Under the pieces are notes generated by a model. The model made no database searches and was not told where the DNA came from. It worked only from the letters and a program-made list of their open reading frames with translations. Shown in pieces: positions 28,432-29,844 of a DNA stretch of 64,000 nt (its first letter is position 1; every line of letters starts with the position of its first letter). The translations under genes were made by a program, and so were the position numbers. Origin of the DNA: Kiloniellaceae bacterium (lineage in GTDB: Bacteria > Pseudomonadota > Alphaproteobacteria > Kiloniellales > J153). The stretch spans positions 124,001-188,000 of the forward strand of contig JAJFGL010000002.1 in NCBI GenBank assembly GCA_021776135.1, read 5' to 3'.

Positions 28432-28595
28432 GGTCGAGGTATCCGTTGCTTTTAGGGGCTAATGCTAAAGGCGGGGCCAGCCTTAAGCGCCGCCCCGCGC
28501 GCCGGGAGTATAGCCAGGGGCGAGGCGGGGGCAAGGGGGGGGCGTTCAGGATGTCCGCAGCCATCAAATCAGAAAACACCCTTGAATTTTTAGAA

Positions 28596-28631
28596 ATCAG
28601 ATATATCTTATTTTATTATGATATATCTGAT
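28596..28631. promoter_or_regulatory. Dual-palindrome operator upstream of the MNT/HEPN genes
   Basis: A perfect 12-bp inverted repeat, ATCAGATATATC (28596-28607) and GATATATCTGAT (28620-28631), with a 12-base spacer. Each arm contains its own palindrome (AGATATATCT and GATATATC) whose centres are 20 bp apart, about two helical turns. The site lies 16 bp before the likely start codon at 28647 in an unusually AT-rich stretch, as expected for an autoregulatory operator bound by the ribbon-helix-helix-like segment of the antitoxin. Binding is inferred. Confidence 0.7.
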
Positions 28632-28646
28632 AATGGAATCCAAGGC

Positions 28647-29504
28647 ATGATGAAACCACAGACAGTCGATCAGTTGCTGATGGTGCTCCGCTTATTTCGC
28701 GAGCGATATGCGGGGGGCGAACCCCTCCACAAATCTTTTCAGCAGGCCGTTCATGAGGTCGCAAAACAATATATCCGGAAATATTCTACCATCGAGGACG
28801 GGCTCCGGCGGCGCTTGAAGCTGAATGATATTGGCGAGCTTTACGATCTCTTGCAGATCTGGATGGGCGGGCGTCCCGGACCCTTGATGGAACAGCTCAA
28901 GAATGCTTCCAATCCGGCCACGCACGACGAAATCGCGGGTTTCTTCGGTGCCTCTTCCAGCGCGGCTCCAACAGGCGCCAAGCAAGCTTCGCCTAACCTC
29001 CTGGAGGCCAAGCTAACCACTTTCTCATTCCGGCTCCGCGAAAAGGATGCACGCATGTTGCGGGCACTTGCGGAAATCGAAGGCGTATCGCCACCGGAGT
29101 TGATCGGAGGCTTGGTCAAAACCGCGGTCGCGGAGAGGATGAAGCGCGTGGCGCAAGTCATGCTTCGCGATTCCGAAACCTCGGAAATCCGTAGCACCAT
29201 GCGTCAGGAAATACTTAGTGCTATTCGCGACCACAAGGCGGAGTTGAGCGGACTCGGAGTCGCGCGGCTTTCCCTCTTCGGCTCCATGGCGCGCGGCGAT
29301 TGGGACACGGACTCCGACATCGATCTCGCGGTTCGCCTGACGCCGGAATTCTCCAGGGGCGGACTGGACTACTTCGGGCGGATAGAGGCCCTAGAGGAGC
29401 GCTTGACGCAAATCCTGGGCCGCCCCGTCGATTTGATCGAGGAACCGGCGGAGGCGGCACACCTCCAAGAACGGATCGACGCGGAGCGGACCGTTGCCTT
29501 CTAA
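28647..29504 (+). CDS. MNT-type nucleotidyltransferase antitoxin with RHH-like and unknown N-terminal domains
   Basis: Starting at ATG 28647, 285 residues. Residues about 190-285 form a minimal nucleotidyltransferase: GSMARG (212-217), then SDIDLAV with D224 and D226, the metal-binding pair of MntA/MNT antitoxins. Residues about 124-168 (TTFSFRLREKDARMLRALAEIEGVSPPELIGGLVK) look like a ribbon-helix-helix DNA-binding unit. Residues 1-105 are an unrecognised helical domain. Ordinary MNT antitoxins are about 100-150 residues, so this is a three-part protein. I chose 28647 because an earlier in-frame start would place the operator inside the gene. It overlaps the HEPN gene by 11 bases. Confidence 0.75.
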   Translation: MMKPQTVDQLLMVLRLFRERYAGGEPLHKSFQQAVHEVAKQYIRKYSTIEDGLRRRLKLNDIGELYDLLQIWMGGRPGPLMEQLKNASNPATHDEIAGFFGASSSAAPTGAKQASPNLLEAKLTTFSFRLREKDARMLRALAEIEGVSPPELIGGLVKTAVAERMKRVAQVMLRDSETSEIRSTMRQEILSAIRDHKAELSGLGVARLSLFGSMARGDWDTDSDIDLAVRLTPEFSRGGLDYFGRIEALEERLTQILGRPVDLIEEPAEAAHLQERIDAERTVAF

Positions 29505-29844
29505 GAGACCGGCGCGCCGCTTCGAGGATATCGTGAAGAATGTTCGCTCGATTGAAGACTACACCGATGACATGAACCTGTCCGGGTTCATGGTGGACGT
29601 CAAAACCCGCGACGCTGTCGAACGCTGCCTTGAAAGGATTAGTGAGGCGGTTGTTAAGCTTGGCGACGACGCCGCCAAGTTCGCGCCCGGACAGCCGTGG
29701 CAACAAATTCGCGCCCTTGGGAACCGGATACGCCATGAATACGACCGGCTGAGCGCCGAACGGATTTGGGAAATTGTCGAGAACGATCTTCCCGCGCTTA
29801 GAGCGGCATGCGAACAAGCGCTAGAAAATATACGCGGTCGATAA
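29494..29844 (+). CDS. HEPN (HepT/DUF86-like) toxin candidate
   Basis: A 116-residue all-helical DUF86/HepT-like protein: RRFEDIVKNVRSIEDYT at the start, AVERCLERISEAVVKLGDDA, and GNRIRHEYD with H81 and Y83 of the usual RNxLxHxY motif. The Arg that normally precedes Asn is Gly (G76), so the classical R-x4-H RNase centre is altered, although the Tyr that MNT antitoxins AMPylate is kept. The start is TTG at 29494, 11 bases inside the MNT gene; GTG at 29533 is an alternative. With the MNT gene it forms a type VII-like toxin-antitoxin pair. Confidence 0.82.
   Translation: MPSKRPARRFEDIVKNVRSIEDYTDDMNLSGFMVDVKTRDAVERCLERISEAVVKLGDDAAKFAPGQPWQQIRALGNRIRHEYDRLSAERIWEIVENDLPALRAACEQALENIRGR

Follow-up and report, generated by a model that had tools for sequence, protein, structure and literature searches.

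A probable chromosomal HEPN-MNT toxin-antitoxin operon with a three-domain antitoxin and a rearranged HEPN active-site motif in a Kiloniellaceae genome

Architecture of the locus

The window, by which we mean the whole 64,000-nucleotide stretch of contig JAJFGL010000002.1 that was analysed, harbours two overlapping genes preceded by a probable promoter and an inverted repeat. The features are as follows.

28583-28613, + strand: probable promoter, placed via the aligned upstream regions of five orthologues
28596-28631, no strand: operator-like dyad ATCAGATATATC-N12-GATATATCTGAT, with perfect 12-bp arms and a 12-bp spacer
28647-29504, + strand: MNT antitoxin of three domains, 285 aa
28647-28961, + strand: N-terminal all-helical HTH-like domain, residues 1-105 (AF2 model; no Pfam family)
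29016-29141, + strand: probable ribbon-helix-helix (RHH) segment, residues 124-165 (hhalign)
29199-29501, + strand: MNT adenylyltransferase domain with GSX10DXD, residues 185-285 (PF01909, 6.3e-12)
29494-29844, + strand: HEPN toxin, 116 aa, with TTG start and 11-bp overlap with the antitoxin gene (PF01934, 1.6e-22)
29719-29742, + strand: rearranged active-site motif G76-N-R-I-R80-H81-E-Y83 (canonical: R-N-x3-H-x-Y)

The pair constitutes a HEPN-MNT module, in that a HepT-like domain (PF01934; 79.9 bits, cutoff 23.5) and an NTP_transf_2 domain (PF01909; 46.2 bits, cutoff 21) are found above curated cutoffs on adjacent genes. The more specific NCBIfam models HepT_toxin (36.8 bits) and MntA_antitoxin (42.2 bits, 6e-11) both match under their cutoff of 60, and a PDB sequence search with the HEPN protein returned chance matches only and no related HepT chain. 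The original prediction of a 285-residue antitoxin with a GS motif and D224/D226 was borne out, G212 and S213 being separated from D224-x-D226 by exactly the spacing of the GSX10DXD motif published for class I MntA antitoxins (PMC7641770). This motif is unchanged in 5/5 copies of the module.

Residues 124-165 match no curated RHH family in Pfam, and NCBIfam RelB matches residues 126-164 weakly (E 0.034). As MAFFT misaligned such short segments, a controlled hhalign comparison was used, in which a profile of the segment from five orthologues was set against seven known RHH proteins (CopG, Arc, NikR, RelB, ParG, FitA and CcdA). The two aligned in register with a probability of 78% and a score of 26, a score reached by 0/300 column-shuffled controls (maximum 14.4). 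Only those stretches of the antitoxin that contain the segment scored against the RHH set; the score of a single-sequence profile was weak. By these comparisons residues 124-165 are likely an RHH segment.

Residues 1-105 likewise retrieved no Pfam family. The AF2 model of this part has six helices (pLDDT 81, pTM 0.74), of which helices 27-41 and 46-56 adopt a helix-turn-helix-like arrangement with a conserved R54-R55-R56, while the model of the full-length antitoxin was too poor for use (pLDDT 47). A fold search against the PDB and viral models gave no significant match. The C-terminal DNA-binding domain of Spo0A recurred among the hits and was rejected, E values of 5-9 being no evidence, and PPR matches to residues 28-81 were traced to designed repeat proteins scoring over repeats. 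The fusion of an unknown helical domain, an RHH-like segment and an MNT domain that had been proposed from the sequence is thus backed by AF2, hhalign and Pfam, although Pfam itself holds no family for the first two parts and the RHH assignment stands on the in-register hhalign match.

Conservation of the module

Whole-length relatives of the antitoxin were found in two genomes of the same genus (78% and 73%) and also in two further genera belonging to the family (60% and 55%), one of these relatives being from a Kiloniellaceae MAG. Elsewhere in the order there were no whole-length relatives and in the sample of the class no full-length ones. All five copies are flanked by the same pfkB-type kinase gene and the same membrane-protein gene, and all five have the TTG start and the 11-bp overlap. 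In a sixth genome, G020 of the same genus, these flanking genes are adjacent and the module is absent, homology ending at about 28539 and restarting at about 29856. The shared locus in five genomes and the clean empty site in the sixth indicate a module that is vertically kept and dispensable, and that has been cleanly lost or gained. In L143, from the related genus g5, a glyoxalase-like gene occupies the same intergenic site and no TA module is present; the site between kinase and membrane-protein gene thus accepts different cargo.

Both genes are under purifying selection across the five copies, dN/dS being 0.16-0.34 in the antitoxin gene and 0.07-0.16 in the HEPN gene. Within the antitoxin, constraint is seen on the N-terminal, RHH and MNT parts individually (pN/pS 0.29-0.34) but not on the linker of residues 106-120 (pN/pS 1.13).

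The HEPN protein and its shifted arginine

The HEPN protein lacks the RX4HXY pattern, with a Gly at the position of the Arg, and both this substitution and the 11-bp overlap had been noticed in the original prediction and were confirmed (G76; 29494-29844). Among 121 distinct HepT-like HEPNs, all those with Gly five residues before the catalytic His (34/34) have an Arg directly before this His, and none of those without Gly at H-5 do (0/87). The Gly class keeps the His in 33/34, the Tyr in 34/34 and Asn77 in 32/35. Positions 50, 76 and 80 differ between the classes, position 50 changing from Gly to Ser in the Gly clade, and the G-x3-R-H class is alphaproteobacterial in this sample. The census, together with the purifying selection on the HEPN gene, ruled out decay as the origin of the Gly. 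The earlier suggestion that the toxin may not be a classic R-x4-H RNase holds insofar as RX4HXY is absent, but the protein is a member of a conserved class and not an odd copy.

The HEPN tree requires about 3 swap changes (2-4 in bootstraps) and is compatible with a single origin, so that many independent origins of the Arg swap were rejected. The swap having a single origin or a small number of them, the correlation is due to a linked change that has long been conserved and not to repeated emergence, and the Fisher p for the swap was not counted as evidence of independent events.

In Shewanella, the R97G mutation of SO_3166 abolishes toxicity (PMC4621449). Since the Gly is natural here, either the active site of the clade has been reorganised around Arg80 or its RNase activity is gone. 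The second possibility, that G-x3-R-H proteins are without RNase activity and that the pair has been domesticated as an AMPylation switch, or is a regulator, and is not a TA system, finds support in the R97G result, in the vertical inheritance at one locus with a HEPN more constrained than its antitoxin, and in the statement, in the passages of PMC3710099 cited here, that MNT-fused HEPNs generally lose catalytic residues. We regard it as improbable, because His81 (33/34), Tyr83 (34/34) and the Arg at H-1 (all members) are kept in a manner unlike decay, and because the genome G020, with its clean empty site, shows the module to be dispensable. The Gly alone does not imply that RNase activity has been lost, as an Arg directly precedes the catalytic His throughout a conserved class. 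The kept His and Tyr and the new Arg favour an active site rebuilt around Arg80, as judged from residue conservation. The role of the canonical Arg is itself disputed between catalysis and handling of the AMP chain, RX4H having been argued to be non-catalytic in a Legionella HEPN in the portion of PMC11586414 drawn upon here. For this family the cited passages of PMC3710099 give a HEPN motif conservation of 83%, and there other basic residues replacing the Arg are mentioned for the Parep1/8 family only.

The probable promoter and the operator-like dyad

The perfect 12-bp inverted repeat that had been reported upstream of the antitoxin gene was located at 28596-28631. Its 36 bp occur once in the window (0 expected from 100 shuffles), and its centre lies 33 bp upstream of the ATG both in the window and in the orthologue L007. 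Within 116 bp around the start, 15/18 ungapped positions are paired in the dyad, which 1/1000 dinucleotide-preserving shuffles matched; the gapped dyad score over 80 bp was equalled in 12/1000. The arms had been described as palindromic, which holds for their inner 8 bp, GATATATC (28600-28607 and 28620-28627, with centres 20 bp apart), but not for the whole 12-bp arm.

The aligned upstream regions place a conserved dyad core over the -10 region, downstream of a conserved TTGATA-like -35. In the window the -35-like element is TTGAAT (TTGATA/TTGACA in orthologues) and the -10-like element, TATATCTTA, overlaps the dyad; a consensus promoter scan picked an overlapping TAGAAA/TATTAT pair instead (9/12). 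The core, TATCTTACG-TT-CGTAAGATA, is perfect in L007, has 8/9 pairs in L005, 7/9 in the window and 6/9 in L009, and is displaced in L010. The dyad is accordingly clear in the window, L007 and L005, and poor in L009 and L010. The arms in L005 are imperfect, 24 bp long and arranged around about the same centre as the dyad of the window (0/1000 shuffles as good), and their outer sequence differs from that of the window. In the aligned sequences, the orthologues do not share the dual palindrome as it stands in the window, which has a version of its own. Conservation of the operator-like dyad extends to its promoter position in the nearest orthologues, L007 and L005, while the sequence drifts and the dyad is weak in L009 and L010. 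Symmetry retained despite sequence drift is the pattern expected from a dimeric repressor.

The N-terminal domain outside the family

The N-terminal domain is rare: beyond the family, about 760 genome searches recovered it in just 2 cases, and it was not found in viral contigs. The first relative (hhalign 97.6%) is from one alphaproteobacterium, L020. There (L020:1501-2549, + strand) a 207-aa antitoxin joins the N-terminal domain to a FitA-like RHH (E 1.4e-4, under the curated cutoff), with a PIN (VapC-like) toxin directly downstream. The second (L171), from another class of the phylum, is a stand-alone relative of 102 aa (E 1.1e-7). It follows a type I RM-like specificity subunit, an AAA ATPase and a PtuB-like HNH protein (L182:81-4245 and L171:1492-1800), an arrangement reminiscent of a defence operon to which a regulator has been added. 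Weaker matches were obtained in L172 and L173 (E 0.004-0.008), and those in L046 and L047 were discarded as chance matches.

These contexts bear on whether the N-terminal domain binds DNA. It may instead serve in protein-protein contacts or as a sensor that responds to a trigger, for example phage infection, by releasing the toxin, as could be suggested by its lack of a significant match to a DNA-binding fold and by the stand-alone relative behind the AAA and PtuB-like HNH pair associated with type I RM. The predicted helix-turn-helix of residues 27-56 with conserved Arg54-56 and the fusion of one relative to a FitA-like RHH antitoxin, a repressor-type protein, point the other way, the Spo0A similarity being weak only (E 5-9), and we consider a sensor role unlikely.

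The original prediction had singled out the locus as a candidate defence or stress system, and a survey of the neighbourhood did not uphold this, the neighbours being the pfkB-type kinase and membrane-protein genes and no defence genes. That the module is primarily an anti-phage system would fit with HEPN RNases being often defensive (cited passages of PMC3710099), with the match of the PADLOC candidate PDC-S09 to the MNT domain (1.3e-17) and with the relative of the N-terminal domain inside a defence-like operon. It is very unlikely in view of the purely housekeeping surroundings and the stable vertical retention. Whole-antitoxin relatives were absent from phages and plasmids, and HEPN relatives from viral contigs.

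Other DNA-binding MNT fusions

Fusions of RHH, ParD-type and Xre domains to MNT recur in Alphaproteobacteria. A CopG-like N-terminal domain on MNT was found in L011, L012, L026, L079 and the Roseomonas plasmid L181, the assignments in L079 and L181 being made by eye, without a curated RHH match. ParD-type RHH domains on MNT are present in L052, L056, L062, L040 and L030 (ParD_antitoxin, E down to 1.5e-6). In this ParD-type set, all four for which a HEPN was found alongside have the G-x3-R-H form. In L050 (- strand) an Xre HTH is fused to MNT (HTH_3, 3.7e-9) and adjoins a HEPN with GSILRHDY. Other arrangements include tandem MNT domains in one protein adjoining a long DUF86 protein on a Gloeocapsa plasmid (L176:156-887), and a second MNT relative in genome G016 (L013:1501-1932), whose match to the query reads across an in-frame TAG and which has no neighbouring HEPN within the stretch examined.

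MNT antitoxins have been described as having no DNA-binding domain (PMC7641770, PMC4621449). A DNA-binding partner in trans was speculated upon in PMC2701414, where HEPN-RHH and not MNT-RHH fusions are reported, and no description of RHH-MNT fusions was found in the open-licence literature. From domain assignments, the RHH-MNT fusion is recurrent and not unique to the window, and the rare part is the extra N-terminal domain.

Discussion

The locus probably represents a chromosomal HEPN-MNT toxin-antitoxin operon that is autorepressed and AMPylation-controlled, with a HEPN whose active site has been rearranged. The antitoxin-first gene order, the conserved overlap, the TTG start, the MNT motif and the Pfam domains all support a TA assignment; the R97G precedent, the lack of a Pfam RHH, the poor dyads of L009 and L010, the NCBIfam scores under cutoff and the few origins of the swap count against this reading. 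The architecture, the dyad at the promoter, the purifying selection on every domain and the Arg swap come from the computed comparisons, while toxicity, AMPylation, repression and RNase activity are suggested by knowledge of the family. In Shewanella, MntA tri-AMPylates Tyr104 of HepT (PMC7641770), and SO_3165 binds its own promoter, which has two palindromes (PMC4621449). By analogy, the MNT domain would adenylylate Tyr83 of the HEPN and keep the toxin off, as MntA does with HepT, while the antitoxin would dimerise on the dyad over -10/+1 via its RHH segment, and probably also via the N-terminal HTH-like domain, and so repress its own operon. When antitoxin becomes scarce, repression would be lifted and unmodified HEPN would cleave RNA and slow growth, using an active site in which Arg80, next to His81, may replace the usual Arg five residues upstream.

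The HepT/MntA type VII system of Shewanella (SO_3166/SO_3165; PMC7641770, PMC4621449) shares with the window the order of an MNT gene followed by an overlapping HEPN gene, the GSX10DXD motif, the His and acceptor Tyr, and the promoter palindromes. The window differs in some 185 extra residues of the antitoxin (helical domain and RHH), in a HEPN with G-x3-R-H-x-Y instead of RX4HXY, and in both proteins scoring under the NCBIfam cutoffs. The pair is thus not assigned to Class I HepT/MntA, as RX4HXY is missing, though it would work like type VII. A type II-like module, in which the antitoxin neutralises the HEPN through binding while also repressing the operon, AMPylation being minor or absent, recalls the original description of SO_3165/3166 as type II (PMC4621449) and the resemblance of the front part of the antitoxin to VapB/ParD antitoxins. 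It is hard to reconcile with a complete GSX10DXD in 5/5 copies and an acceptor Tyr in 34/34 class members, and we hold it to be quite improbable.

The AMPylation-controlled operon that we prefer has further partial counterparts. Roseomonas mucosa plasmids (L181) and f6 genomes (L011, L012) also have direct RHH-MNT fusions with an adjoining HEPN, but without the 105-aa N-terminal domain and with a HEPN partner that has the canonical Arg. The VapBC-type pair of L020 has the same N-terminal domain followed by RHH, but its toxin is a PIN nuclease and its antitoxin lacks the MNT enzyme. In Legionella pneumophila, a HEPN is also AMPylated by an MNT protein and RX4H need not be catalytic in all HEPNs; that HEPN retains RX4HXY, and no DNA-binding fusion is reported in the passages of PMC11586414 cited here.

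We tentatively propose, as a possibility somewhat short of an even one, that in one HEPN clade the catalytic Arg has shifted from position H-5 to position H-1 (R76 to G, x80 to R, G50 to S), the toxin remaining an active AMPylation-controlled RNase by way of a rearranged active site, and that a previously unnamed helical DNA-binding domain serves as an interchangeable regulator in MNT antitoxins, in antitoxins of VapB-like type and in a defence-like AAA-HNH operon.

In the published view, MNT antitoxins are without a DNA-binding domain and HepT toxins are RX4HXY RNases. What is seen at this locus and in its relatives suggests that several MNT antitoxins of Alphaproteobacteria include a predicted repressor domain of their own. 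Surveys requiring RX4HXY would miss the G-x3-R-H clade. In this whole clade of HepT proteins the Arg that is essential in SO_3166 is naturally a Gly and is accompanied by a replacement Arg, so that one or two point mutants would test directly whether this residue, whose role is disputed, serves in catalysis or in handling the AMP chain.
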